This document shows positions 73 to 21,233 of a stretch of DNA of 64,000 nucleotides, one piece after another. A program made the translations under genes and the position numbers. Under the pieces are notes generated by a model. It had not been told where the DNA came from, did not search any database, and worked only from the letters and a program-made list of their open reading frames with translations. Source of the stretch: Oceaniglobus roseus (GTDB taxonomy: Bacteria > Pseudomonadota > Alphaproteobacteria > Rhodobacterales > Rhodobacteraceae); assembly GCF_002869745.1 (NCBI RefSeq), contig NZ_PNOS01000028.1:1-64000 (forward strand), read 5' to 3'. The stretch's first letter is position 1, and each line of letters starts with the position of its first letter.

Positions 73-319
73 GTCTGTCCGGGGAAAGGGGAACCTCGGT
101 CGCCAGGTGATTTGCGCAACAGAGCCGACGTGACCGGATATCCCTCCCGCCCAAGGGAAGCCTCCATTCTACCTTGACGGGAATCCGCCTTGGGTTTACT
201 CTACGTCAATCGCTATTGAAACCACTTGCTCAGATTGGGACGTTTCCGATTTCTTCGCCGGATTCCGCCGGCGCCCCTCTCAGATTCCGAAAATTTATGG
301 CAGCATGTGGAGGTTTTCC
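73..319. other. Upstream region of the multicopper oxidase operon
   Basis: About 250 bp without a convincing gene. It is less GC-rich than the coding DNA, particularly around 185-240, as expected of a promoter region for the large oxidase gene. I could not identify a convincing -35/-10 pair or an operator palindrome. The only clear signal is the Shine-Dalgarno GGAGG at 309-313, just before the oxidase start. Confidence 0.4.
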
Positions 320-3300
320 ATGACCTATGCTGTAGCCTTCCGGTCGATCTCTGTAATTTTATTCGCTTTTACAATGTCTTGCGTGCTGGCGCACCAAGCG
401 GTGGCGGCCATTGAAGGGTCCGAGAAACAGCCGGTGCCGATCACACCTCCAGCGGCGGCATCCCCCGTCTGCACGGCCCGGAACACCGTGCTCGCCCGCG
501 TCGTCGCGCTCGAGCAAATATACGTCTACAACCGCTTCGGTGCGTTCAACCCTGGCGGGATGCTCTATGCGCTGCGCCGCGACGTGGTGGTCAGTGACGG
601 CGAGGGGGGGGCGGGGGGCGGTCTTGCGGACGGCGACGCGATCCCGCTGCTGCCCGATGCCGCCACGGACGAGGCGCTGGCGGGCAATGTGCGCCTGCGC
701 GAGGACAAGCGCCCCCGTCCCATCGTCCTTCGGGTGAACGAGGGTGACTGCCTGCGCGTCGAGTTCACGAACCTGCTGTCGCCCGACCGCGACGGCGAGG
801 AGCATGTCGTCGATCCCCAGACGTTCGAAGAGATCTCCATCGACTCGGACGAGCCGGCGACACGGTCGGCGTCGATCCACGTCAACGGTCTGGAACTCTC
901 GGGATCGATCGCGTCGGACGGAACCGACGTGGGGTTCAATCCCTCGGCGCTGGCCGCGCCGGGCGAGACGAAGACCTACACCTGGATCGCCAGGAAGGAG
1001 GGCGGCTACCTCCTCTATTCGATGGCCGCGGCCGCGGGCGGGGAGGGCGACGGCGGGCAGCTGGGGCTGGGCCTGTTCGGGTCGGTCAACGTCGAACCGG
1101 CCCGATCCTCATGGTATCGCTCGCAGGTGACGGGGCCGCAACTGGCCGCCGCGACGACCGGAACGACCGAACTCGGCACGCCGGTCATCGGCGACTACGA
1201 CGTCGCCGATGCGGCGGGTGTGCCGATCCTCAACATGGTCATGCCGCTCTCCGGGAACGATTACGCGGACCGCGAGCTTGTGCACAGCGACATCAACGCG
1301 ATCGTCGACGTGAGCGCGAACGGAGAGCCTTGCGACCTGATCCTCGGGCCCGGCAGCGCATGTGGCCAGCCGTTCCGGGAGTTCACCGTGATCTTCCACG
1401 ACGAGCTGACCGCCGTTCAGGCCTTCCGGGAACTGGAGGACGAGGAAAACCCGATCCACGCGCTTCGCGACGGCATGGGGATCAACTACGGTGCCGCCGG
1501 GCTGGGCGCGATGGTGCTGGCCAACCGCGCCGGCATCGGACCGGCCAGGGACTGCGTGGAATGCAAGCTCGAGGAGTTCTTCCTGACCTCCTGGGCGATG
1601 GGCGATCCGGCGCTGGTGATCGACCGCGATGCCGACGGCAAGGCGCTGCGCGCGCTCTATCCCGACGATCCGTCGAACGTGCACCACTCCTACCTCGGCG
1701 ACCCGGTGCGGTTCCGCAACCTGCACGCCGGCCCGAAGGAGACCCATGTCTTTCACCTGCACGCGCACCAGTGGACCCAGGACTGGCACGATCCGGATTC
1801 GGTCTACCTCGACAGCCAGACGATCTCGCCCGGGGCATCCTTCACCTACGAGGTTCACTACGGCGGTTCCGGCAACCGCAACCTGACGCCGGGCGATTCG
1901 ATCTTCCACTGCCACCTCTACCCGCATTTCGCGCAGGGCATGTGGGAGCTGTGGCGCACCCATGACGTGTTCGAGGCGGGCACCGCCGACCGCGCGCTGC
2001 CGGACGGAGAGATCGCGGGCGGCACGCCCAACCCCGCCGTCGTGCCGATGCCCGAGACACCGCTGCCGCCGATGCCCAGTGCCGGGTTCCGCGGCTATCC
2101 GTTCTATGTCGCGGGCATCCCCGGCCATCGTCCGCCGCAGGCGCCGCTCGACATCGACCCCGATGCCTATGCCGAGGATACGGCCGACACCCTGATGCGT
2201 CACGTCGTTCTTGCCGGAGAGCGCGAGACCGGGACCGCGCCCTTCGGAACGGACGCCGACGGCAATCCCAAGGACCTGGAGGCGAAGTATTTCGACACGA
2301 CCATCCCCGAGGACGACCCGATGGGGCAGGCGAACCGCATCGCGGCCCGCGTGCGCGAACAGAACGCCAACCCGGCGCTCTTCGGTCTGGCGGCGAAGCT
2401 GACCAAGGCCTGGATCCGCAAGCTGCCGCTCGACGGCACGCCCGAGGAGAAGACCGCGATGGAGTTCCACGCCGGTCTCGGCCCCGACGCCGTGACCGTG
2501 GAGCGTTCGCTCTACGGTGTGCCCGAGAAGGCCTACCCGAGCTGCCTGTCGGACGGCACCTGCAACTCGGCGGACACCAGCGTGCTGTTCCGCGTCAACG
2601 GCTATGCCCCGATGCCCGGTGCGCCCTTCGCGGACCCCTGCGCGAAGCGGTTCTATCTCGGCAAGGCGGGCGACGATCCGGAGGATCCCGGCCTGTGGCG
2701 GGAGCTTGCGGCGGAACGCCGGTACCGGGCGGCCTACCTGCAATTCGACATGCCGGTGAACAAGCACGGCTGGCACGATCCGCAGGCCCGCATCATCGCG
2801 CTGGAGGAGGACGCCGCCGCGATCCTCGACCACAGCCGCGCGCCCGAGCCGTTCTTCTTTCGGGCGAACTCCGGCGAGTGCGTGGTCTTCGAGGCGACGA
2901 ACCTGATGCCGTCGAACCTGAACCTCGACGACTTCCAGGTGTTCACGCCGACCGACACGGTCGGGCAGCACATCCATCTGGTGAAGTTCGACGTGACCGC
3001 CTCCGACGGGTCCGGCAACGGCTGGAACTACGAGGACGGCACCTTCTCGCCCGACGAGATCCGCGAGAGGATCATCGCCAGCAACGCCTTCCGCGGGACG
3101 GCCGAGCTGCGGCCCCTGACGCACCGCCTGTTCCGGCCCGGCGGTGCTCTGGCGGGCGATCCGCGCGGCCAGTGCCCGGCGACGCTTCCGGCGGATCCGC
3201 AGGCGGCCGAGCTTGCGCTGGCGGCGCATCCCTGGTGCGGCGCGCAATCGACGATCCAGCGCTGGTGGGCCGATCCGCTGCTGAACCAGAACGGCGTCGA

Positions 3301-6037
3301 CCGGTCGATCCGCACCGTCTTCACCCACGACCATTTCGGCCCGAGTTCGGCGCAGCAGCACGGCTTCTACGCCGCCCTGGTCATCGAACCCGACGGATCG
3401 AGCTGGCAGTCGCTCGCCGGCAAGACATTCGGCGGCGAGCAGGCCGGTGCACAGGTCGTGAAGCGTGCCGACGGCGGCCCGACCTCGTTTGCCGCGAACA
3501 TCGTCGTGCCTGGCCGGGACGGCGCGCCGGCCCGCAGCACCCGCGAATACAACATGGCGATCGCCGATTTCGCGCTGCTCTACACCGCGCCGCCGGAGAA
3601 CAAGCCGATCAGCCCGCCGGGCCAGCTGGACCACGACCTCCCCGAGATGGTCTTCGACTCCACCTTGCCCCGGCCCGAAGGCATCTCGGTCAGCGATCCG
3701 GGCGGGCAGGTGATCAACTACCGCAACGAGCCGGTGCCGGGACGGGTCGGGCAGGCGAACGACAACGGCAAGTGGTCGCTGCGGACCTTCGATCCGACGC
3801 GGGCATCCGCCTGCAGGGCCGCGCTGGAAACCGCGCGCGAGGTGGGCGGCACGACCCTGCCGGACGTCCGGATCAGCGATTGCCGCGACGGACCATGGGG
3901 CCCCGCCGAAGCCGCGGCCTGCGAGGCGCGCGTGGTGGCCGCCCTCTGCGACCCGAGCGACCTGGCCAACGTCTTCTCCAGCCATGCCCATGCCGGGCAG
4001 GATCAGGCGATCCGCGACGCCATCGCCGCCGACGGGCTGGTCTACGACACCCGGCGCATCTTCATGGAGAACTACCTCGCCCGCGACTGCGTCGACACCG
4101 AGGATCATCTCTGCGCCGAGCCCGCCGGGCTGCGGCGCGACGGCGATCCCGGCACGCCGCTGCTTGCGGCGCGCGAGGGCGACGACGTCGACATCCGCCT
4201 GGTGCAGGGCGCGCAGGAGGAGAACCACATCTTCTTCTTGAACGGCACCAAGTGGCTGGCGGTCCCCGGATCGGCGAACAGCGGCTACCGCGCCGCGCAG
4301 CACATCGGCATTTCCGAACATTTCGAGTTCAACATCAACATCCAGGACCCGTCGCCGCAGCTGAGCAAGGACCATCTTTACGGCACCACTGCGACCGACA
4401 ACTTCTGGGACGGGCAATGGGGCCTGATGCGGGTCGTCGCGCAGGATCAGCTGATGGCCCGTCCGGGCGGCGGACCGGCCCCGCTGTCCAGGCTGCCGAC
4501 CAACGGTGCGTCGGACATGCTGGTGAACGCGTTCCAGGACAACTGCGCGCCGCAACTGCCGCGCCGGATCTTCCGCGTCGAGGCGTGGCGGCTGAGCGAC
4601 CTTGCCGGCGGTGGCCCGTCCTATCACGGCAGCCGCGACATCACGGATCCGAACGCGCGGATCTTCGTGCTGGCGGGCATCGACACGCAGGGACCGACGC
4701 CCGCGGGCGGCCCCCCGCCGGCGCTGGTGACCGAGGTCGCGCGCGACGCCTCCGACCTCGCGCTGATCCGCGACGGTGCGAAGGCACCCGAGCCGCTGAT
4801 CCTGCGCGCCCGTGCCGGAGAATGCATCGAGGTCGAGCTGACCAACATGCTGGTCCTGCAGCCCGAGGACCTGACCGATCCGGCCAACTGGTCGTGGAAC
4901 ATGATGCCGCCCATCGCGGACGGCCTGAACTTCAACCAGGTGCGCATGTCGGATGCGGTGGGATTGCATGCCCAGCTCGTCGCGGGCAACGCGGTGCTGA
5001 ACGATGGCTCCGCCGTCGGTCTCAACAACACCACGCTGGCCTATCCCTGCGATGCCGCGGCCGGGAGCGAGTTCTGCGGCAGCGCCGACAGCCTGCCGGA
5101 CGGCAAGTACCTCTGGGACAACCGGGTCACCTATCGCTGGTATGCGGGCGACTGGACCAAGGGGGCAGGGGACGCCGCGCCGACCTTCACCCCGGTCGAG
5201 TTCGGCGTCGCCGGGCTGCAGGATTTTGCCGATGTCATCAAGGGTGGATCGCACGGCCTGATCGGTGCGCTGGTGATCGAGCCGGTCGATGCGACCTGGC
5301 GGACCGACTGCGACGTGCTTCGGGGCCGCGACGACGTCACGCCCGAGAACCGGCGCCAGTGCCTCAATGCCGCGGCCACGGTGACGGTGCCCGGGCAGAC
5401 GCCGTTCCGCGAGTTCGTCGTGATCTACCAGAACGACGCGAGCCTGCGCTACCGCGGCGAGGCGCTGGCGAACCTGCGCAACGGCGACGATGCCGAGGAT
5501 TCCGGCCAGAAGGCGTTCAACTACCGGTTCGAGCCGTTCTGGACCCGGCTCGACGCCAACCCGGCCGCGGATCCCGAAACGATGATGGACTACGACTACG
5601 GCAACCTTCTGTCGTCGAAGCCCGAGGACGGTTTCGGCGATCCGTCCACACCGCTCTTCACCGTCGCCGCGGGCACGCCGGTGCGGTTCCGCATCGTCGA
5701 GCCCGCAGGCCATCCGCGCAACGGGGCCTTCACGCTGTCGGGCCACGACTGGGTCAACTACCCGTGGAGCGACGCATCGACGGTGCAGACTGCCGATCCG
5801 GGGCCGCAGAACCGCGTCGGCGTGGTCAACGCGGTGGGTCCCGGGCGGCACGAGAACGTCCTGCTGGAGCGGGCAGGCGGGGTCGAGAACATCACCGGCG
5901 ACTTCCTCTATCGCACTCCCCTCGGGTTTGCCTTCGGCGGCGGTCAGTGGGGAATCATGCGGGTCTTCGATCCGGCGGCCTGCGACGGCGGCGTGATCCG
6001 CGACGACCGCACCGGCCTGACCCAGGTCTGCGAGTGA
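320..6037 (+). CDS. Giant six-cupredoxin multicopper oxidase, MnxG/McoA-like
   Basis: Predicted exported multicopper oxidase of about 1905 aa. An ATG lies at 305, but the ATG at 320 has GGAGG six bases upstream and gives a normal signal peptide (hydrophobic core in the first 30 residues, then AVAA), so 320 is preferred. Three cupredoxin pairs are visible. Each begins with a GE/GDC-x-E-x-TN strand (GDCLRVEFTN, SGECVVFEATN, AGECIEVELTN) and ends with a GxWGxMRV or QGMWEL strand. The second domain has H476-x2-HLHAH and HCHLYPHFAQGM (H530, C531, H532, H536, M541), a full type 1 site plus half a trinuclear centre. The third domain supplies H884/H886 and H1003/H1005, the other half. The last pair has lost the ligands. 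Length and architecture match the Pseudomonas MnxG/McoA Mn(II) oxidases. The substrate here is inferred, and other metals or organics are possible. It heads an operon with the next three genes. Confidence 0.85.
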   Translation: MTYAVAFRSISVILFAFTMSCVLAHQAVAAIEGSEKQPVPITPPAAASPVCTARNTVLARVVALEQIYVYNRFGAFNPGGMLYALRRDVVVSDGEGGAGGGLADGDAIPLLPDAATDEALAGNVRLREDKRPRPIVLRVNEGDCLRVEFTNLLSPDRDGEEHVVDPQTFEEISIDSDEPATRSASIHVNGLELSGSIASDGTDVGFNPSALAAPGETKTYTWIARKEGGYLLYSMAAAAGGEGDGGQLGLGLFGSVNVEPARSSWYRSQVTGPQLAAATTGTTELGTPVIGDYDVADAAGVPILNMVMPLSGNDYADRELVHSDINAIVDVSANGEPCDLILGPGSACGQPFREFTVIFHDELTAVQAFRELEDEENPIHALRDGMGINYGAAGLGAMVLANRAGIGPARDCVECKLEEFFLTSWAMGDPALVIDRDADGKALRALYPDDPSNVHHSYLGDPVRFRNLHAGPKETHVFHLHAHQWTQDWHDPDSVYLDSQTISPGASFTYEVHYGGSGNRNLTPGDSIFHCHLYPHFAQGMWELWRTHDVFEAGTADRALPDGEIAGGTPNPAVVPMPETPLPPMPSAGFRGYPFYVAGIPGHRPPQAPLDIDPDAYAEDTADTLMRHVVLAGERETGTAPFGTDADGNPKDLEAKYFDTTIPEDDPMGQANRIAARVREQNANPALFGLAAKLTKAWIRKLPLDGTPEEKTAMEFHAGLGPDAVTVERSLYGVPEKAYPSCLSDGTCNSADTSVLFRVNGYAPMPGAPFADPCAKRFYLGKAGDDPEDPGLWRELAAERRYRAAYLQFDMPVNKHGWHDPQARIIALEEDAAAILDHSRAPEPFFFRANSGECVVFEATNLMPSNLNLDDFQVFTPTDTVGQHIHLVKFDVTASDGSGNGWNYEDGTFSPDEIRERIIASNAFRGTAELRPLTHRLFRPGGALAGDPRGQCPATLPADPQAAELALAAHPWCGAQSTIQRWWADPLLNQNGVDRSIRTVFTHDHFGPSSAQQHGFYAALVIEPDGSSWQSLAGKTFGGEQAGAQVVKRADGGPTSFAANIVVPGRDGAPARSTREYNMAIADFALLYTAPPENKPISPPGQLDHDLPEMVFDSTLPRPEGISVSDPGGQVINYRNEPVPGRVGQANDNGKWSLRTFDPTRASACRAALETAREVGGTTLPDVRISDCRDGPWGPAEAAACEARVVAALCDPSDLANVFSSHAHAGQDQAIRDAIAADGLVYDTRRIFMENYLARDCVDTEDHLCAEPAGLRRDGDPGTPLLAAREGDDVDIRLVQGAQEENHIFFLNGTKWLAVPGSANSGYRAAQHIGISEHFEFNINIQDPSPQLSKDHLYGTTATDNFWDGQWGLMRVVAQDQLMARPGGGPAPLSRLPTNGASDMLVNAFQDNCAPQLPRRIFRVEAWRLSDLAGGGPSYHGSRDITDPNARIFVLAGIDTQGPTPAGGPPPALVTEVARDASDLALIRDGAKAPEPLILRARAGECIEVELTNMLVLQPEDLTDPANWSWNMMPPIADGLNFNQVRMSDAVGLHAQLVAGNAVLNDGSAVGLNNTTLAYPCDAAAGSEFCGSADSLPDGKYLWDNRVTYRWYAGDWTKGAGDAAPTFTPVEFGVAGLQDFADVIKGGSHGLIGALVIEPVDATWRTDCDVLRGRDDVTPENRRQCLNAAATVTVPGQTPFREFVVIYQNDASLRYRGEALANLRNGDDAEDSGQKAFNYRFEPFWTRLDANPAADPETMMDYDYGNLLSSKPEDGFGDPSTPLFTVAAGTPVRFRIVEPAGHPRNGAFTLSGHDWVNYPWSDASTVQTADPGPQNRVGVVNAVGPGRHENVLLERAGGVENITGDFLYRTPLGFAFGGGQWGIMRVFDPAACDGGVIRDDRTGLTQVCE

Positions 6038-6049
6038 CCGGAGATGGCC

Positions 6050-8119
6050 ATGCCCCACGCACCCGTCGTCGTCCTGGCCGCAGCAACCGCGGCAACCGCC
6101 GCAGCGTTTCTTGCCGCCCCGCTCCTGCGCCGCGACACAAGCGCAGGGGTTCCCTTCTACCTGACCGGCGAAATCTGCAGCGCCGATGACACCCGGTTCC
6201 CGCCGATCGAAGTTGCCGCCGAAGACCCGGCAACTCCTGCCGGGGCCGACCACGGCCACGGCGCGCCGCGGCACTCCGCAGCCGCCTGGCAGATGCCGTT
6301 CACCACGGACTTCGACCCGGACACCGCAAAGGTCAGCTTCGCGCTCAGCCCGGTCGACGGGGACGGGATCGTCGCGGGCGAGGAGGTGCGCGCGACGGTG
6401 AAGATCACCGACGGCGCCAGCGGCCTGCCCGTTTCGGGGCGCAGCATCGCGGGCTGGATGATGTTGCAGCGCAATGCGCAGGTCTCGGCGGAGTTGCCCT
6501 GCAGCGCCAAGGCCAGGCTGTTCACGCAGGGGCGCGTGACGGCGCGGCCCGACGTCGACCTGAACACGTCGCGGATGCTGGTGCTGAACCGCGACGGATC
6601 CATCGCCGTCGTCAATCCGCAGGTCGATTTCACCATCACCCAGATGGAGGGCGTGATCCCCTTGCCCGGCGTCCCGGCCGACTGGGCGAAGTCGGACGAC
6701 GGCCAGACCGTCTACGTCTCGCTGCCGGTCTTCGGGGCCGTGGCCGTCATCGACACGCGGGCCTTCCAGATCACCGGCCTGATCGAATTGCCCAAGGGCA
6801 GCATGCCGACGCGCCTTCTGGCCCTGGTGCGGGGCGAACTGGCGGTCTACCTCTCGGCCCCCGGCACCGTCACCATCGCCCGCCCGGACGGCACCGGCCA
6901 GACGACGCCCGTCCCGGTCGGCCCCGCTCCGGTCGCGATGGTCCGCGACGGGGGCGGCAGCCTCTATGCGGCATCGTCCGACGGGCAGATCGTCCGCATC
7001 GACACCGAGACCGGCAGGCGGATCGCCAGCGGACAGACCGACGCCGGAGAGCCGTCGCTCGCCTGGTCGCCCCTCGACCGCACGCTCTACGCGGCGTCCC
7101 GCAGCGCGACGCGGATCGTCGCGCTGGACCCCGCGAAGCTGGGCCTGCGCGGACAGATCGCCACGGCGCCCGGTGTCTATGCCATGGCCATCGTCCCGGC
7201 GCAGCGCCATCTGATCGCGCTCAACCGCGACACGGACACGATGACGCTGATCGACACCCGCATGAACCAGACGGTGGCGCAAGGCCGCGTGGCCGGACAG
7301 CCGGTCGAGGTGACCTTCTCGCACGACTACGTCTATGTCCGGGGCCTGGCGGGCGATCACTTCACCGTCGTCGACCTGGCAGAGCTTGCAGAGGGCAGGA
7401 TCGCGCCCATCGACATCCAGTCCGCCGCGAGCCCCGTCCGTCCGCGCGAGGCCCTGTCGCGGGCGACGATGGTCGCGCCCTACGGTCACGGCGCGCTTGT
7501 CGGCAACGCGGACGAGGCCGTCGCCTATTACTACATGGAAGGGATGAACAGCCCGATGGGGACGGTCAAGACCTACGGCAAAAGCGTGCAGGGATTGATG
7601 ACCATCGACCGGGGCTTCCGCGAAGTCCTGCCCGGCCTGTACGAGACGACGGCAAGGCTGCCCTTCGGCGGAACCTACGACATTCCGATCGCGGTCGATG
7701 CCGATGGCCATGTGTCCTGCTTCAGCGCGACGGCCCGGCCCGCTGCGCCGACCGCGGAAAAGGTCGACCGCGTGGCGCTGCGCGTCGAGCCGGTCGAGGA
7801 CGCGACCCTCGTCGCCCGCCACGCCGGCAGGGTCGTCATCCGTCTGGTCGACGAGGCCACCGGCGCGCCGAGCGATGGGCTGAAGGACGTGAGGCTCCTG
7901 GCATTTTCCACGGGCGGCACCTGGCAGGCGCGCGCCTGGGCGACCGGCCTCGGCGACGGGCGCTATGCCGGGGCATGGACATTCCCGAAACCCGGCCGTT
8001 ACGGCCTCAGTCTCGAGGTGGCCTCCCTCGGGATGCGTTTTGCGGATCGCCAGCCCCTCTATCTCAGTGTCGGCGCGCCGCCAGTCATCGAAGTCGGCGA
8101 GAAGGAGATCATCCCATGA
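6050..8119 (+). CDS. Exported beta-propeller protein with YtkA-like ends
   Basis: About 689 aa, 12 bp after the oxidase. ATG codons occur at 6044 and 6050; 6050 has CCGGAG at a better distance. The N-terminus MPHAPVVVLAAATAATAAAF is a signal peptide or membrane anchor, followed by a His-rich DHGHGAPRH stretch. Residues about 85-165 (DPDTAKVSFALSP...) resemble the YtkA/FixH beta-sandwich. About 190-490 form repeated YVSLPVFGAVAVIDT/VRIDTETGR-type blades of a YncE/lactonase-like propeller. The last 100 residues (DGLKDVRLLAFSTGG... YGLSLEV) look like a second YtkA-like domain. No catalytic motif is recognised. Position suggests an extracytoplasmic partner of the oxidase, perhaps in metal delivery or assembly (inference). 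Its stop overlaps the next start (ATGA). Confidence 0.75.
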   Translation: MPHAPVVVLAAATAATAAAFLAAPLLRRDTSAGVPFYLTGEICSADDTRFPPIEVAAEDPATPAGADHGHGAPRHSAAAWQMPFTTDFDPDTAKVSFALSPVDGDGIVAGEEVRATVKITDGASGLPVSGRSIAGWMMLQRNAQVSAELPCSAKARLFTQGRVTARPDVDLNTSRMLVLNRDGSIAVVNPQVDFTITQMEGVIPLPGVPADWAKSDDGQTVYVSLPVFGAVAVIDTRAFQITGLIELPKGSMPTRLLALVRGELAVYLSAPGTVTIARPDGTGQTTPVPVGPAPVAMVRDGGGSLYAASSDGQIVRIDTETGRRIASGQTDAGEPSLAWSPLDRTLYAASRSATRIVALDPAKLGLRGQIATAPGVYAMAIVPAQRHLIALNRDTDTMTLIDTRMNQTVAQGRVAGQPVEVTFSHDYVYVRGLAGDHFTVVDLAELAEGRIAPIDIQSAASPVRPREALSRATMVAPYGHGALVGNADEAVAYYYMEGMNSPMGTVKTYGKSVQGLMTIDRGFREVLPGLYETTARLPFGGTYDIPIAVDADGHVSCFSATARPAAPTAEKVDRVALRVEPVEDATLVARHAGRVVIRLVDEATGAPSDGLKDVRLLAFSTGGTWQARAWATGLGDGRYAGAWTFPKPGRYGLSLEVASLGMRFADRQPLYLSVGAPPVIEVGEKEIIP

Positions 8120-9633
8120 CACGCTTCATCCTCGCCGCCTTGGCGGCCTTTCTGCCGGGCACTGCCATGGCGCAGGACATGGCGCACCAGTTCCTGCTGG
8201 TCGGCCAGATCGAGAGCCTGACCGTCGACGACCAGACCGATCCCCTGTCCGGAGCCGTCATCAAGGTGCACGGGATCGAGGTGACCCTGCCGAAGAACCT
8301 GATCATCCAGATGCCGGCGCGGTATCTGACGGCGAAGGACATCGTCGAGCTGAACCCCGCGGCGCCGGGGGTGAACTCGGGTCTCGCCCTCGCCGACAAC
8401 CCGCCGCCCCTGGCCAGCTTCGAGGCGACGGTGGTGGGCAACATCGTCGGCGCGCGCTACATCGCCGGACTGGTCTGGATCTCGCAGCATTCGCTGGCCG
8501 AAGGGGCGGGCTACATCAGGGACATCGGCCCCGACGGAGAGATCCATCTTGTCGCCGACCCTGATCCGGCCGCCCCGGCGCAGCCGGTCACCCGGATCCG
8601 CATCAACGATCCGAACGGCGTCTTCGCGCCGCCCGATCCCTTGGCCGACGAACGCTTCATGGTCGACGAGGCGAACCCGACGATCCATGCCGGCACCGGC
8701 TATCCGATGTGCATCGCCCATGCCGGTGCGCCGGGCGAATGCCCCGCCGCCAATCGCCCCCTCGGCCCTGACGGCGCGCCGCTCGGCACCTTCGTGATGG
8801 GGCCCGCGGGTCTGCCCGGATCGCCCGCCGGGGCGCTGCCGATCCCGCCGTGCCCGGGCTGCGACCAGACGCGGCAGGCCCCCCTGATGCCGGGGGACTA
8901 CATCATCTACGCCGGCACGCTGGCGAAGGACGGGGCGGATCTCTACGTCTCGGCCCATACGGTCGAGGCGAACGTCGGCATCTACACGGCGCCGGGCGTC
9001 GACCCGGCCTATGTGCTGATCGAAGGGTCGTTGATCGGCACCCAGGGCCCCCTGATCCCGCGGGATCCGGCCGTGCCCGGCAACACCCTTCCGCAGGAGA
9101 CCCAGGACCGGCTTAAGATCGAGGGGGTCACGACCGACCCCAGCCGGGCGATCGAGCTCTACGCGATCGACGTGAACGAGACCACGGGCGGCACGACCTT
9201 GCGACTGTTCAACACCGTCCCGGCCCAGCCTGCGCCCCTGGGGCGATACCGCCTGATCCTCGGCTCCCGCGCCAACGCATTGTTCGACGCGGGTGGCACC
9301 CTGGTCGGTGCGCCGCGGGAACTGATGGCGCGGGTGGCCAGCGGTGCGAACCTCGATGGCCAGCCCGTGCCGGAACTTCCGCTCGCGGCCCACGGCCTGG
9401 TGGCGGGCCAGTACGTGGCGCCCTTCGGGGAGTTCATCTTCGCGGAGAACAAGGTCTTCGGCGATCCGATCCTGCCCGACAACTTCGACTGCCTGCCGTT
9501 CCTGCTGAAGGGCTCGGGTCCGCTGACGACGACCGGCGCCGCCGGACCTGTCGTCGGCCCGCTCGATCCATGGCCGGACGCCGTGCCGCGACCCGCGGCC
9601 GTCAACTGTGGTCCGCGGCCGAAGCCGCTGTAG
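8116..9633 (+). CDS. Secreted protein of unknown function, oxidase operon
   Basis: 505 aa. The start at 8116 overlaps the previous stop by ATGA and has AAGGAG eight bases upstream, so the genes look translationally coupled. A clear signal peptide (MTRFILAALAAFLPGTAMAQ) points to export. The body is rich in Pro, Gly and Asp and contains a Cys-rich patch (about residues 195-255: CIAHAG, GECPAAN, PPCPGCDQ) that could bind metal or form disulfides. I recognise no family. Conserved placement behind a giant oxidase would support a role with it; that is inference. Confidence 0.7.
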   Translation: MTRFILAALAAFLPGTAMAQDMAHQFLLVGQIESLTVDDQTDPLSGAVIKVHGIEVTLPKNLIIQMPARYLTAKDIVELNPAAPGVNSGLALADNPPPLASFEATVVGNIVGARYIAGLVWISQHSLAEGAGYIRDIGPDGEIHLVADPDPAAPAQPVTRIRINDPNGVFAPPDPLADERFMVDEANPTIHAGTGYPMCIAHAGAPGECPAANRPLGPDGAPLGTFVMGPAGLPGSPAGALPIPPCPGCDQTRQAPLMPGDYIIYAGTLAKDGADLYVSAHTVEANVGIYTAPGVDPAYVLIEGSLIGTQGPLIPRDPAVPGNTLPQETQDRLKIEGVTTDPSRAIELYAIDVNETTGGTTLRLFNTVPAQPAPLGRYRLILGSRANALFDAGGTLVGAPRELMARVASGANLDGQPVPELPLAAHGLVAGQYVAPFGEFIFAENKVFGDPILPDNFDCLPFLLKGSGPLTTTGAAGPVVGPLDPWPDAVPRPAAVNCGPRPKPL

Positions 9634-9648
9634 CCGAGGGACTCCGCC

Positions 9649-10221
9649 ATGGCACTGAACATCACCGACGTTCCCGACCGGGCGACCTTCGCCGCCGATC
9701 CCGAAGCGGATTTCCAGCCCTGGACCGGCATTGCCTCCGACGGGAACACGCTGCGCTTCACCCGCATGCGCTCGGCGCAGCGACGGTCATGGTGCGCCAT
9801 CGACGACGCCCGGCAGATGCGCCGCCTGACGCAGGGCCTGAGCTTCAACGGCCATTTCCCGACGCCGGGCGAGGTCCTGATCACGACCAACCAGATCCCG
9901 AGCCAGTCCTTCGCGCTGAGCTTCGACCTCCCGGTGCGCGGTGTCGGACTCGACGTGGAACCGGCGCCGGCCGCGGTCGTGCCGGGGCAGGGCTTCAAGG
10001 TCAGCCTCGTGCTTGCCGACACCACGACCATGGAGTCGGTGGAGGTGGAGAAGATGGGCGCCATAGGCGGATGCGTCTTCATCGGCGCCAGTTGCGACAG
10101 TGACCGCATCGACCGGATGATCGTCCGGGTCGCCTTGGTGGACGGCGGCGGGCAGGAAGATCCGGTGGAGTTCGCGGTCAACCGGATGGAGCTGTTGGCA
10201 CCGGTCGGCAATATCGTCTGA
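9649..10221 (+). CDS. Uncharacterised beta-rich protein, last gene of oxidase operon
   Basis: 190 aa, 15 bp after the preceding gene, start MALNITDVPDRATF. No signal peptide or membrane segment is visible, unlike its three operon partners. The C-terminal half (RGVGLDVEPAPAAVV... GCVFIGASCDSDRIDRMIVRVAL... FAVNRMELL) has the strand pattern and FIGxS-SDxxI signature of extracellular beta-sandwich domains found just before sorting signals in PEP-CTERM-like proteins, although no sorting signal follows. Function unknown. Leaderless export or a cytoplasmic role are both open. Confidence 0.65.
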   Translation: MALNITDVPDRATFAADPEADFQPWTGIASDGNTLRFTRMRSAQRRSWCAIDDARQMRRLTQGLSFNGHFPTPGEVLITTNQIPSQSFALSFDLPVRGVGLDVEPAPAAVVPGQGFKVSLVLADTTTMESVEVEKMGAIGGCVFIGASCDSDRIDRMIVRVALVDGGGQEDPVEFAVNRMELLAPVGNIV

Positions 10222-10414: not shown

Positions 10415-12774
<2,360 letters not shown>

Positions 12775-12937
12775 TCAGGCGGGATGCAGCGGCCGGGGCC
12801 TTGGACTGCGATTGTTGCGGGGCGATCCACCGGGCGGCGGACCGCCCCGTGACTTCTTTGCGCGGCATCGCACGGGGCCCGGCCGCACGCGTCGAAAATT
12901 GCGACACAGGGCGCGGGAAACGCGACGGCGCGCGCCC

Positions 12938-14983
12938 TCAGATGTCCTTCACCAGCCTGAGCGCATCGTAGATCGCGGCGTGGGTGTTGCGCGCGCTGAC
13001 GGCGTCGCCGATGCGGAACAGGCGGAACCGGCCCTCCGGGTTCGCCACCACGTCCTGCGGCCGCCCCTCGATCAGCGCGTCGTGGTCGACCGCCCCGCCG
13101 TTCGACGACAGCGGCTTCAGCTCGAAGTACAGCTCGTCCAGCGGCAGCGTGCCGTAGTTGACCACCACCTGGTCATAGACCTTCTCGGTGGTCAGAGCGC
13201 TGTAGTCGGTGCCGATCACGGCCTTCAGCCGGTTGCCCTCGCGCGTCACGCCCTTCAGGCGGCGCGTGACGGTGAAGGTGACGTCCCTGTGCTGCAGCGA
13301 CCGCATGTAGGGCACGAGGTTCATTCCCATGATCTCGGGCGCGAAGGTGCGGTCGGGGGTCATCACCTCGACGCTCGACCCGGCCTCCGCGGCGACCTCG
13401 GCCGCCATCAGGCCCGGATGATCGCCGCTTTCGTCGTAGATCAGCACGCTCTGGGCGGGTTTCACGTCGCCCGCGATGAGGTCCCAGGCGCTCACGACGT
13501 GGGGCTCGTCCGAACCCTTCTCGAACAGCTCGGTGTTCGGCAGGCCGCCGGTGGCCACGATCACCACGTCGGGATCCAGCGCGATGACGTCGTCGGCCGT
13601 GGCCCAGGTGTTGAACCGGAACGCGACGTCGCGCGCGGCGCATTGCGCCATCCGCCAGTCGATGATCGACATCATCTCGCGCCGCCGCGGGTTGCGCGCG
13701 GTGAGGCGGATCTGGCCGCCGGGATCGCCCTGCGCCTCGAACACGGTCACCGCATGGCCCCGCTCGGCGGCGACCCGGGCGGCCTCGAGACCCGCCGGCC
13801 CCGCGCCGACGATCACCACCGTCTTCCGCTCAGCCGCCGGGGCGATGGTGTGGGGCATCGTCAGCTCGCGCCCGGTGGCGGCGTTGTGGATGCACAGCGC
13901 CTCTCCCCCCTGGTAGATCCGGTCGAGGCAGTAGGTGGCGCCGACGCAGGGGCGGATGTCTTCCTCGCGCCCCTCCATGATCTTCCTCACGACATGGGGG
14001 TCGGCCATGTGGGCCCGCGTCATGCCGACCATGTCCAGCAATCCCGCCGCAACCGCGTGGCGGGCCGTCGCCACGTCGGGGATCTTCGCGGCATGGAAGG
14101 TCGGCATTCCCGTGGCCTTGCGCACCGCGCCCGCGAAGTCGAGATGCGGCGCGTTCTTCATGCCCTGCACCGGGATCACGTCGGTCATCGCGGGGTCGGT
14201 GTGGATGCGGCCCCGGATCACGTTCAGGAAATCGACGAGCCCCGTCGCCGCCAGCCGCTTCGAGATCTCGATGCCTTCCTCCGGCGTGATCCCCCCGGCC
14301 TCGGCCTCGTCGGCCGTGTAGCGCAGGCCGACGATGAAATCGCTGCCCACGCGCTTCCGGATGCCGGTGAGGACGTCCATCAGCAGCTGCATCCGGCTGT
14401 CCAGCGTCTGCGCGCCATAGGGCCCGTCGAGGTCGTTGGTCAGCGGCGACCAGAACTGGTCCAGCAGGTGGCCGTAGACCTGCAACTCGATCCCGTCCAT
14501 GCCGCCCGCCTGCATCCGCTCGGTCGCGTCGACGAAATCCGAGACGATGCGCGCGATGTCCCAGTCCTCGGCCCGCTTCGGGAAGGCCCGGTGCGCCGGT
14601 TCGCGGTGCTTCGACGACGACACCGAGGGCAGCCAGTCCCCCTTGTTCCAGGCCGTGCGACGCCCGAGGTGGGTGAGCTGGATCATCACCGCGCAGCCGT
14701 GGTCGTGGCAGGCGTCCGTCAGCTGCCGGATCCACGGCACCACCTCGTCCTTGTAGGCGAGGACGTTGTTGAACACCGGCGGGCTGTCCTTCGACACCGC
14801 CGCCGATCCGGCGGTCATCGCCAGCGCCACGCCCGCCTTCGCCCGCTCGGCGTGGTAGGCGGCATAGCGTTCCTTCGGCATCCCGTCCTCGGGATAGGCG
14901 GGTTCGTGGCTCGTCGTCATGATGCGGTTGCGCAACGTGAGATGCTTGAGCGTGTAGGGCTGGAGGAGGGGATCGGTGGACAT
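12938..14983 (-). CDS. FMN/FAD N-methyl demethylase, old-yellow-enzyme family (DgcA/StcD-like)
   Basis: 681 aa. Start at 14983 (MSTDPLLQPYTL), with CCGGAG eight bases upstream; an open frame extends further upstream but without a ribosome site. The N-terminal half is an NADH:flavin oxidoreductase TIM barrel (TLRNRIMTTSHEP, GCAVMIQLTHLGRR, GMDGIELQVYGHLLDQFWSP). Between the halves is a Cys-rich region (CVGATYCLDRIYQGGEALCIHNA) for a [4Fe-4S] cluster. The C-terminal half has the FAD motif VVIVGAGPAGLEAARVA. This is the layout of trimethylamine dehydrogenase, dimethylglycine demethylase DgcA and N-methylproline demethylase. It likely performs the step after the Rieske oxygenase. Confidence 0.8.
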   Translation of the reverse strand: MSTDPLLQPYTLKHLTLRNRIMTTSHEPAYPEDGMPKERYAAYHAERAKAGVALAMTAGSAAVSKDSPPVFNNVLAYKDEVVPWIRQLTDACHDHGCAVMIQLTHLGRRTAWNKGDWLPSVSSSKHREPAHRAFPKRAEDWDIARIVSDFVDATERMQAGGMDGIELQVYGHLLDQFWSPLTNDLDGPYGAQTLDSRMQLLMDVLTGIRKRVGSDFIVGLRYTADEAEAGGITPEEGIEISKRLAATGLVDFLNVIRGRIHTDPAMTDVIPVQGMKNAPHLDFAGAVRKATGMPTFHAAKIPDVATARHAVAAGLLDMVGMTRAHMADPHVVRKIMEGREEDIRPCVGATYCLDRIYQGGEALCIHNAATGRELTMPHTIAPAAERKTVVIVGAGPAGLEAARVAAERGHAVTVFEAQGDPGGQIRLTARNPRRREMMSIIDWRMAQCAARDVAFRFNTWATADDVIALDPDVVIVATGGLPNTELFEKGSDEPHVVSAWDLIAGDVKPAQSVLIYDESGDHPGLMAAEVAAEAGSSVEVMTPDRTFAPEIMGMNLVPYMRSLQHRDVTFTVTRRLKGVTREGNRLKAVIGTDYSALTTEKVYDQVVVNYGTLPLDELYFELKPLSSNGGAVDHDALIEGRPQDVVANPEGRFRLFRIGDAVSARNTHAAIYDALRLVKDI

Positions 14984-15090
14984 GGGCGACTCCGGTTGAT
15001 CGCCGCAGGATTGCCGCGAATGTACAGTTGTGTCAATTAAATGTTCAGACGTGTTGAGTTCGCTTGCCTTGGCCGCCGGTTCGCGCCTAG
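14984..15090. promoter_or_regulatory. Divergent promoter/operator region, betaine locus
   Basis: About 110 bp between the demethylase (minus) and the TetR gene (plus). It contains an AT-rich island (15020-15060). On the minus strand there is a perfect -35 TTGACA (15036-15031), though its -10 is poor. This is the natural site for TetR autorepression and control of the demethylation genes, but no clean palindrome stands out. Confidence 0.45.
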
Positions 15091-15738
15091 ATGCCGCCGA
15101 TGACACAGGTTTCAGATCCCGATGAGAAGACCCGCGGATGGCGGGGGTCGCGCGAGCTCTGGCTTGCCGCCGCCCGTGAGACGCTGATCGAGTCGGGTGT
15201 CGACGCGGTGAAGATCCAGCCGCTCGCCGCGAAGGTCGGCCTCGCGCGGACGAGCTTCTACTGGTTCTTCGAGGATCGCGCGCAGCTGCTGCGGGCCCTG
15301 CTCGACGATTGGCACCGGAGCAACACGGCGCCTCTCGTCCAGGCCACGGAAGCCTATGCCGAAACGATCGCCGAGGCGGTGCTGAACGTGATCGGCGTCT
15401 TCCTGTCGGACGGCTTCGAACCCCGTCTCGACCTTGCCGTGCGCGGCTGGGCCATGAACTCCGACGAGGTGGCCGCCCTGACCGCCGCGGCCGATGCCGA
15501 GCGGCTGGCCGCGCTCCAGGCCATGTTCGTCCGCTTCGGCTGCGACTCCGACGAGGCCGACGTGCGCGCGCGCACCATGTACCTCGTGCAGGTCGGCTAC
15601 ATCTCGATGCAGATGCAGGAGGACATCGCCCTCCGCCTCTCGCGGATCCCGAACTACGTGAAGACCTTCGCCGGCCAGGCGCCGAGGCCGGAGGAGATGG
15701 AGCGCTTTTGCGCCAGGCTGGGCCTGTCCGGCCCGTGA
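15091..15738 (+). CDS. TetR/AcrR family transcriptional regulator
   Basis: 215 aa; a second ATG at 15100 is possible and neither has a clear Shine-Dalgarno. The N-terminal helix-turn-helix is standard TetR (LAAARETLIESGVDAVKIQPLAAKVGLARTSFYWFFEDRAQLL, residues about 23-66), followed by an alpha-helical ligand domain. It is divergent from the betaine demethylase gene with about 110 bp between starts, so it likely senses the substrate or an intermediate and represses that gene and perhaps the Rieske pair. Ligand unknown. Confidence 0.85.
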   Translation: MPPMTQVSDPDEKTRGWRGSRELWLAAARETLIESGVDAVKIQPLAAKVGLARTSFYWFFEDRAQLLRALLDDWHRSNTAPLVQATEAYAETIAEAVLNVIGVFLSDGFEPRLDLAVRGWAMNSDEVAALTAAADAERLAALQAMFVRFGCDSDEADVRARTMYLVQVGYISMQMQEDIALRLSRIPNYVKTFAGQAPRPEEMERFCARLGLSGP

Positions 15739-18130: not shown

Positions 18131-18212
18131 CGTCGGTCCCCGGGTGCGTTCGCTCCACAATATCGGATTCGGATGCGATGCCAAGTCTGGCTCCGGCGAT
18201 TTCTTCCTGTCG

Positions 18213-19475
18213 TCAGGTCGCGCCGAGCGCGTGGAGCCCCGCGCCCGCCGCCGCCATGACCGCGAGGACCAGCGGCAGCGGCCAGTGCCGCCCGAGCAGC
18301 AGGAGCGCGGCAAGGGCCGTCAGGGCGAGGGCGGGCCAGGACAGGGTCGCGGGATCGGGGCGGAGCAGGTGCAGCGGCCCGAGCGTGACGGACTCGACGC
18401 GGGCGAACAGGACGTGGAGCGCGAACCAGAGCGAGAGGTTCAGGATCACGCCCACCACCGCCGCGGTGATCGCCGCCAGCGCGCCCGTCAGCCGGGGGCG
18501 CGCCGCGATCCGGTCGAGCCAGGGCGCGCCGGCGAAGATCCACAGGAAGCAGGGCACGAAGGTGACCCAGAGCGTGACCGTCGCGGCGAGGAGCGCCAGA
18601 GGCAGCCCGCCCGCGCCGTAGCCCGCCAGGAAGCCGACGAACTGGGTGACGAGGATCAGCGGTCCCGGCGTGGTCTCGGCCAGCCCGAGCGCGTCGATCA
18701 TCTCGGCCGTGGTCAGCCAGCCGTGGTGCGCCACGACCTCCTGCGTCATGTAGGCGAGCACGGCATAGGCGCCGCCGAAGGTGACCACGGCGAGGCGCGA
18801 GAAGAACAGGGCGACTTCCAGCAGGAACGTCTGCCCGAGCGCCGCCAGCAGGGCGAGGGGCGCGGCCCAGAGGCCGAGCCAGAGCGCGACCGTCGCCGGG
18901 GTGCGCGGCCTCTGGCCCGCGGGCGGAGCGGGCATCCCGGCCGGGCGGGCGGTCGCGGCGCCCCAGAGCGCGGCGAGGGCGATGATCAGCGGGAAGGGCA
19001 GGTGCAACAGGAAGATGGCGAGGAAGGAGAGCGCGGCGACGATCCAGTGCGCCCGCCCCTTCAGCGCGCGCCGCGCGACCTTCAGCAGCGCCTCGACCAC
19101 GACGATCACGACGGTTGCCTGGATCCCGAGGAACAGCGCCCGGACCAGGGGCACGCCGCCGAACAGCGCATAGCCGATGGACAGCGCGAGGATGACCAGC
19201 GCGCCGGGCAGGACGAACAGCAGCCCCGCGAGAAGCCCGCCGGGGGTGCCGCGCAGCTTCCAGCCGGCATAGGTGGCAAGCTGCATCGCCTCGGGGCCGG
19301 GCAGCAGCATGCAGAACGAGAGGGCGTTCAGGAACTCGCGTTCGGTGAGCCAGGGGCGGCGGTCGACCAGCTCGCGGTGCATGAGGGCGATCTGCGCGGC
19401 GGGGCCGCCGAAGGACAGAAGGCCGATGCGCCCGAAGACGGCGAAGAGCTCTCTCATGCCTGGGGCCGTCGCCAT
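18213..19475 (-). CDS. chrA: Chromate transporter, ChrA family (two-domain)
   Basis: 420 aa inner-membrane protein with about 10-12 hydrophobic segments. Two homologous CHR halves are visible: LLSFGGPAAQIALMH ... LLPGPEAMQLATYAGW in the first and AVVTFGGAYAVLAYMTQEVV ... TTPGPLILVTQFVGF in the second. Long-chain ChrA proteins export chromate, probably in exchange with sulfate or protons. The start is uncertain: the Met at 19475 or one six codons later. No chromate regulator is adjacent, so specificity is by homology only. Confidence 0.9.
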   Translation of the reverse strand: MATAPGMRELFAVFGRIGLLSFGGPAAQIALMHRELVDRRPWLTEREFLNALSFCMLLPGPEAMQLATYAGWKLRGTPGGLLAGLLFVLPGALVILALSIGYALFGGVPLVRALFLGIQATVVIVVVEALLKVARRALKGRAHWIVAALSFLAIFLLHLPFPLIIALAALWGAATARPAGMPAPPAGQRPRTPATVALWLGLWAAPLALLAALGQTFLLEVALFFSRLAVVTFGGAYAVLAYMTQEVVAHHGWLTTAEMIDALGLAETTPGPLILVTQFVGFLAGYGAGGLPLALLAATVTLWVTFVPCFLWIFAGAPWLDRIAARPRLTGALAAITAAVVGVILNLSLWFALHVLFARVESVTLGPLHLLRPDPATLSWPALALTALAALLLLGRHWPLPLVLAVMAAAGAGLHALGAT

Positions 19476-20801: not shown

Positions 20802-20881
20802 CCGGCGTCTCCCTTTCGGGCGGACGTTCGTCGGGAGACATGGCCGCAACGTGGCGCGGGCGGGGCATTCGGGGAGAAAGT

Positions 20882-20907
20882 GCAGGCTTCTGTTGCCAGG
20901 TGCCTGC
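20882..20907 (-). terminator. Possible terminator after ssrA
   Basis: Inverted repeat with six-base arms GCAGGC (20882-20887) and GCCTGC (20902-20907), located just past the coding piece of ssrA on the minus strand. On the minus strand it is followed by ACTTTCTCC, only a weak U-tract, so it is a tentative terminator. Confidence 0.4.
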
Positions 20908-20909
20908 GA

Positions 20910-21191
20910 ACCCCGCCTTACGCGGCTAGGCGCAAGGACTTAATTTTCGATCACTCGAACCGCTTAGGCGGCCAGAGCAACCGGAGCATGGTTGTTGTTG
21001 GCAACTATACTTTACGGACCGATAACGGTGGTACCTCACCGGGTGAAAGCAACAGCTTTAGACGTTTGTCGATCCTGTTTCGGCCCCATGGTCCCCCAAC
21101 AAGGGATCTTGGTGGAGCCGCCGGGTACCGCCCCCGGGTCCAATCCGCTTATTACCTGCGCGTTTATCACCATAGTCCGGCGAACCGGACA
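20910..21191 (-). ncRNA. ssrA: tmRNA, circularly permuted two-piece form
   Basis: Rescues stalled ribosomes and tags nascent chains for proteolysis. Read on the minus strand, the acceptor piece comes first (about 21191-21110), ending GGCGGCTCCACCA with CCA at 21112-21110. A short removed loop follows (21109-21088). The coding piece starts at 21087 with GGGGCCG, which pairs all seven bases with CGGCTCC of the acceptor arm. The tag frame (21002-20967) reads ANNNHAPVALAA and is followed by TAA (20966-20964). Permutation is the known state of alphaproteobacterial tmRNA. Mature ends are estimated. The tag differs from the ANDNRAPVALAA form known in Rhodobacter. Confidence 0.95.
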
Positions 21192-21197
21192 GCATTG

Positions 21198-21226
21198 ATA
21201 GTAGGGTCGGCGGCAGCGCTTTTCAA
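21198..21226 (-). promoter_or_regulatory. ssrA promoter
   Basis: On the minus strand, TTGAAA (21226-21221) is separated by exactly 17 bp from TACTAT (21203-21198), close to the sigma-70-type consensus. The expected start about seven bases on (near 21191) coincides with the beginning of the tmRNA acceptor piece. Confidence 0.7.
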
Positions 21227-21233
21227 GACGGAG

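Follow-up and report, generated by a model that had tools for sequence, protein, structure and literature searches.

A predicted six-domain, MnxG-type multicopper oxidase and its four-gene cluster in Oceaniglobus roseus

A 2013 paper (PMC3618234) describes MnxG from Bacillus SG-1 and related strains as carrying its A, B and C, D copper motifs in reverse order, while MofA, another long Mn oxidase, and MoxA are given in the same source as having the usual motif order. Among six-domain oxidases, all of the bacterial enzymes analyzed in PMC3600357 were assigned a domain 2/domain 3 trinuclear site and a blue copper confined to domain 2; ceruloplasmin and hephaestin, which also have six cupredoxin domains, are described in that paper as having a trinuclear site between domains 1 and 6 and blue sites in domains 2, 4, and 6. 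MnxG of Pseudomonas putida GB-1 is 1944 aa long (PMC3600357), and the mnxG operon of that strain is reported to contain mnxG and genes for a beta-propeller protein, two SCO1/SenC proteins, an ABC-binding/cytochrome protein, and SurA (PMC11409713; PMC8218464).

Here we describe an oxidase gene of this kind in a 64,000-nucleotide stretch of Oceaniglobus roseus DNA (contig NZ_PNOS01000028.1, positions 1 to 64,000; referred to below as the window). The oxidase is the first gene in the window, and its frame is open for 1910 aa from position 305 and, with the ATG at 320 as start, for 1905 aa; all residue numbers are counted from that ATG (Table 1). The N terminus, read by eye, has a hydrophobic stretch resembling a Sec signal. 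Pfam recognized only fragments of the protein (Cu-oxidase_3 at residues 172-260 and Cu-oxidase_2 at residues 460-541). The resemblance to MnxG, which the initial annotation had noted for size and left to a profile search, held up well in two such searches. The NCBIfam MnxG model NF041487 matched the oxidase with most of its length covered (E 7.3e-268, 891.9 bits), and the MnxG chain 9bxa ranked first in a PDB profile search with the oxidase core (E 4e-215), with an identical motif order. After 9bxa, 40 further PDB chains were listed at E <= 1e-6, starting at 2.3e-09; these are 276-343 aa long, and most are named copper oxidase or two-domain laccase, with many under the latter name. A PHROG match (E 0.28) was dismissed as chance, and a scan of viral contigs with the oxidase core alignment returned 62 pattern stretches and no relative.

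Bacillus MnxG, as represented by 9bxa (1227 aa), shares the six-domain layout and has a domain 2 set (HxxHxH, HCH) followed by a domain 3 set (HxH, HDH), but it is about 700 aa shorter than the window oxidase, which is similar in length to MnxG of P. putida GB-1. In the 9bxa chain, Ala takes the place of H536, which we infer to be an engineered T1 change because the Priestia relative, a natural protein, retains His. Bacillus MnxG also has the partners MnxE and MnxF. Because the window oxidase reached 892 bits against a curated NF041487 cutoff of 3100 bits, which places it under the level set for MnxG equivalogs, and because its position in the tree described below is apart from the nearest MnxG-like proteins, the oxidase is, judged by sequence, an MnxG-type member of the bacterial six-domain class but not MnxG in the strict sense. 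We consider it very likely that the gene encodes an MnxG-type multicopper oxidase with six domains, presumably secreted or periplasmic; this level of confidence applies to the architecture and mechanism class and not to the substrate.

Table 1. Positions in the window of the oxidase gene, its predicted copper motifs, the genes behind it, and the stretch shared with Loktanella atrilutea.
Feature	Positions	Strand	Details
Six-domain MnxG-type multicopper oxidase	305..6037	+	1905 aa from ATG at 320
Domain 2 motif ETHVFHLHAHQW	1739..1774	+	Residues 474-485; H476 (T1), H479 and H481 (trinuclear); roles by homology to multicopper oxidases
Domain 2 motif HCHLYPHFAQGM	1907..1942	+	Residues 530-541; H530, C531, H532, H536, M541
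Domain 3 motif HIHLVKFD	2969..2992	+	Residues 884-891; H884, H886
Domain 3 motif FTHDHFGPSSAQQH (begins FTHDH)	3320..3361	+	Residues 1001-1014; H1003, H1005
Codon of H1303, domain 4	4226..4228	+	Leftover T1-type His position; invariant in 21/21 rows
Partner 1, beta-propeller protein with YtkA-like stretch	6044..8119	+	691 aa; Pfam/NCBIfam, tblastn
Partner 2 (unk3)	8116..9633	+	505 aa; no family match; ATGA overlap with partner 1
Partner 3 (unk4)	9649..10221	+	190 aa; no family match; tblastn
Collinear stretch	169..10221	.	Versus L013:7836-17879; 86.4% nucleotide identity; ends with fourth gene

Copper binding by the oxidase is predicted to involve twelve residues (H476, H479, H481, H530, C531, H532, H536, M541, H884, H886, H1003, and H1005), which make up the full classical set for one T1 and one trinuclear site. 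It had been claimed earlier that all ten expected ligands could be placed; the positions stand, with exact residue numbers, while the count does not, as the list given there itself comes to twelve. The accompanying assignment of the T1 site and half of the trinuclear site to domain 2 and of the other half to domain 3 agrees with the alignment to MnxG. To the window protein we aligned 20 other long homologues (2 from genome-contig loci, 10 from among the 30 plasmid records with matches, and 8 from other genomes); strong matches in genomes G857, G954, G826, and G1267 were left out. Six rows (L038, L042, L047, L048, L049, and L050) span the whole frame between stops, with no start chosen, and two (L044 and L050) are short, L050 being cut by a contig end. 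Each of the twelve ligand columns is identical in 20 or more of the 21 rows, the sole departure being Phe in place of M541 in the Rubrobacter row. Columns conserved to this degree number 166 of 1905 overall, with 62 in domain 2, 39 in domain 3, and none in domain 6 (domain limits as set in this analysis), and against that rate chance was rejected as the source of the ligand pattern. Motifs C and D lie upstream of motifs A and B, that is, the domain 2 set comes before the domain 3 set, and this order is identical in all 21 homologues, including the 1228-aa Priestia protein. The initial annotation had taken the order as something that sets this oxidase apart. That view has to be given up: the order has been published for Bacillus MnxG and bacterial six-domain oxidases and is common to the whole alignment, and the reversed order of copper sites is already familiar from this enzyme class and is not new. 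An AlphaFold model of residues 51-1090 built from a 3-row alignment had a mean pLDDT of 26.7 and was unusable for judging whether the histidines converge in space; the low confidence is probably due to the shallowness of the alignment. As a separate observation, H1303 is invariant throughout the homologues even though the rest of the T1 site of domain 4 is gone.

Three genes follow the oxidase on the same strand. The YtkA-like stretch of the propeller protein encoded by the first of them scored 20.1 bits, under the Pfam cutoff of 25.9. By tblastn, the propeller protein was matched at 15 of the 20 homologous loci, adjoining the oxidase in each; at L079 it lies upstream of the oxidase on the other strand. 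Matches to unk3 were found in 4 of the 20 other loci (L012, L013, L037, and L049), all belonging to the oxidase clade of the window, and matches to unk4 in only 2 (L012 and L013); the four-gene cluster is present in the window, L012, and L013. At two further loci (L050 and L076) the sequence ends within or close behind the oxidase gene, so the absence of unk3 there says little. The unk3 protein carries a CPGC motif. Its PDB match to 9oh5 (E 0.0017, residues 402-459 only) was rejected as chance, and an AlphaFold model from a 3-row alignment had a mean pLDDT of 28.0.

As in the Pseudomonas mnxG operon, the gene after the oxidase encodes a beta-propeller protein, a match by description (PMC11409713); unlike that operon, the window cluster has two further genes that gave no Pfam match to SCO1/SenC, ABC-binding/cytochrome, or SurA proteins. 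The window cluster lacks both SCO and cytochrome c genes, and the same genome has two SCO1/SenC genes, both on other contigs. Seven relatives have an SCO gene, four by annotation (L037, L039, L041, and L046) and three by Pfam (L049, L077, and L078). On plasmids of Roseomonas, Sphingobium, and Paracoccus yeei, both SCO and cytochrome genes are annotated, and L049 has both by Pfam. At L077 and L078, the propeller proteins have YtkA over the cutoff, and SurA-type and SCO genes lie behind them; these loci are near the MnxG model, scoring 2183 bits in a single match and 1156, 450, and 330 bits in three. L077 has the kinds of genes found in the mnxG operon of P. putida GB-1, in a different order and with YtkA in its propeller protein.

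Elsewhere in the window, positions 1-71, at the contig start and just upstream of the cluster, carry the last part of a further reading frame (LQVRIAVLNGYTALGIPVTEAVG followed by a stop), which may belong to a repeat at which the assembly broke. Positions 10415-15106 on the minus strand contain genes resembling those for the glycine betaine monooxygenase subunits GbcB and GbcA and an OYE-type oxidoreductase, with all matches under the NCBIfam cutoffs. An alphaproteobacterial (permuted) tmRNA, ordinary for the group, lies at 20879-21230 on the minus strand.

In a tree of the 21 rows, the oxidases of the window, L013, L012, L037, and L049 form one clade (99/98). It is separate from L076-L079 and L038, which include the proteins nearest the MnxG model; the tree contains no protein over the MnxG cutoff, and the Rubrobacter and Priestia rows, both on long branches, may be grouped together falsely. 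The carriers of unk3 are exactly the five members of this clade, with L050 and L076 truncated near the oxidase. The closest named full-length match is that of Loktanella atrilutea DSM 29326 (L013), which has 91% protein identity over the full length and all four genes. Unlike the cluster, the flanks of L013 have no nucleotide match to the window in the 7.8 kb before and the 3.8 kb behind it. Since the 86.4% nucleotide identity is confined to the cluster and the flanks do not match, the pattern of this ~10-kb cluster fits transfer as a unit, with only 168 bases of the window compared on the upstream side. The GC content (69.2% versus 69.5%) does not mark the cluster as foreign. In the flank of L012, positions 18149-19255 match window positions 18406-19413 at 69-70% nucleotide identity, in two pieces. 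The remaining clade members, on plasmid pRo-1 of Roseomonas gilardii (L037) and in genome G506 (L049), likewise have propeller and unk3 homologues beside the oxidase, but SCO and cytochrome c genes are present there too, and their oxidases have 45% identity to the window protein.

Oxidase matches of any strength are rare. They were found in 2 of the 61 nearest relatives and in none of the 5 same-genus genomes, one of which is 75% complete. Wider searches gave matches in 6 of 248 genomes of the family (one weak), 4 of 385 of the class (two weak), and 4 of 398 of the phylum (one weak); each of these counts, like that for the nearest relatives, includes the genome of the window itself. In the class of G506, 8 of 369 genomes have matches (two weak). 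None of the genomes in the class (385), phylum (398), or G506-class (369) searches was over the MnxG cutoff. Matches also occur in 30 plasmid records, and long relatives extend to further alphaproteobacteria, a second class of the phylum, and Rubrobacter and Priestia plasmids. A setting distant from Pseudomonas, as proposed earlier, is in keeping with the alphaproteobacterial tmRNA and with Loktanella as the source of the closest named full-length match. We offer as a modest new lead that unk3 is a partner seen only in its own oxidase clade. A bolder reading would make the window, Loktanella, Hyphomicrobiales-MAG, Roseomonas, and G506 oxidases a separate branch of long oxidases with unk3 as a dedicated partner; the Loktanella-type cluster would have dropped the SCO/cytochrome partners and moved between genomes as a ~10-kb unit, and the branch would amount to a functional subtype in its own right, which may load copper or handle the oxidized product in its own way. 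This is speculative, and we regard it as unlikely.

In the mechanism that we propose, an electron donor would be oxidized at the T1 copper of domain 2 (H476, C531, H536, and M541) or close to it, and electrons would presumably pass along H530-C531-H532 to a trinuclear cluster made up of H479, H481, H530, and H532 from domain 2 and H884, H886, H1003, and H1005 from domain 3, where O2 would be reduced to water. The oxidase is probably secreted or periplasmic, and the propeller/YtkA-like protein and the unk3 and unk4 proteins encoded behind it are likely to serve as partners in maturation or product handling. The substrate is the least certain part of this proposal. Kinship and the propeller neighbor make Mn(II) the likeliest candidate, with a chance that we would put slightly above even.

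The alternative that weighs most keeps the same architecture and assigns it a substrate other than Mn(II), e.g., Cu(I), Fe(II), or an organic donor, with a function in metal detoxification or iron handling; we regard this as a serious contender whose chances are somewhat below even. The oxidase groups apart from the nearest MnxG-like proteins and scores far under the MnxG equivalog cutoff, and the rarity of its relatives (6 of 248 genomes in the family, including its own), together with the 30 plasmid records, resembles the pattern of an accessory gene. The Rubrobacter relative, moreover, lies near CopC, CopD, ZIP, and cation-diffusion genes. Another route of Mn oxidation may also exist in the same genome, since it has one animal-heme-peroxidase match, over the cutoff, at G000 contig C9:34169-34744; MopA is an animal heme peroxidase (PMC11409713). 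Against a non-Mn substrate stands the propeller-YtkA neighbor, which is common to mnxG-like loci.

The order of the copper motifs calls for an explanation of its own. Internal repeats detected by blastp (domains 1-2 with 5-6, E 9.8e-10; domains 3-4 with 5-6, E 1.1e-9; domains 1-2 with 3-4, E 5.8e-4) and a segment-wise match along 9bxa, both at the level of sequence, support a division of the protein into six cupredoxin domains arranged as three tandem pairs. The layout of three-domain laccases (A and B N-terminal, C and D C-terminal, about 500 aa) does not fit. When the three repeats were aligned across eight homologues, ligand positions were filled only in domain 2, which has the T1 site and half of the cluster, and domain 3, which has half of the cluster; elsewhere, the window protein keeps single histidines at homologous positions, namely, 187 in domain 1, 1303 in domain 4, and 1550 in domain 5. 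The repeat alignment thus upholds the initial annotation in its claim that the last cupredoxin pair has lost its ligands (domain 5 keeps His1550 and domain 6 has none), and the loss extends to domains 1 and 4 as well. A trinuclear site of the ceruloplasmin type is absent, as domain 1 has one His and domain 6 none at the ligand positions; where ceruloplasmin and hephaestin have a domain 1/domain 6 cluster and blue sites in domains 2, 4, and 6, the window oxidase would have a domain 2/domain 3 cluster and a blue site in domain 2 only.

Two-domain oxidases form trimers with copper clusters between neighboring units, so a fused six-domain chain would have three such sites, between domains 2 and 3, 4 and 5, and 6 and 1. 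The three cupredoxin pairs may have arisen by repetition of a two-domain unit, and if only the domain 2/domain 3 site survived of the three possible inter-pair clusters, the motif order would come to look permuted. Comparison of the repeats suggests that three tandem two-domain units with only this site kept are the best explanation of the "permuted" order. A true circular permutation, i.e., rearrangement of a three-domain oxidase gene such that the C-terminal domain came ahead of the N-terminal one, would account for the raw motif order (C and D before A and B), but the threefold internal repeat fits site loss from a six-domain ancestor, a scheme already published in PMC3600357, and both the leftover histidines at equivalent positions in the other pairs and the similarity to two-domain oxidases in the PDB point the same way. 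On the internal repeats and leftover ligands we set circular permutation aside as highly improbable.

It is also very improbable that the gene is a decaying or noncatalytic paralogue, as might be read from the four of six domains without a full ligand set and from its absence from all 5 same-genus genomes searched (one 75% complete), given that all 12 ligands are retained, that 1905 codons run without a stop, that the Loktanella homologue is 91% identical over its full length, and that the four-gene cluster recurs in the window, L012, and L013.

With these results, the long MnxG-type oxidases known so far gain a Loktanella-like cluster, and the striking motif order proves common to every homologue examined. 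Heme-peroxidase (MopA) routes of Mn oxidation are better known in alphaproteobacteria. Two alphaproteobacteria with a heme-peroxidase Mn route are named in PMC3618234. If the oxidase described here oxidizes Mn(II), it would add a multicopper-oxidase route in alphaproteobacteria, and unk3 provides a handle on what sets this branch of oxidases apart.
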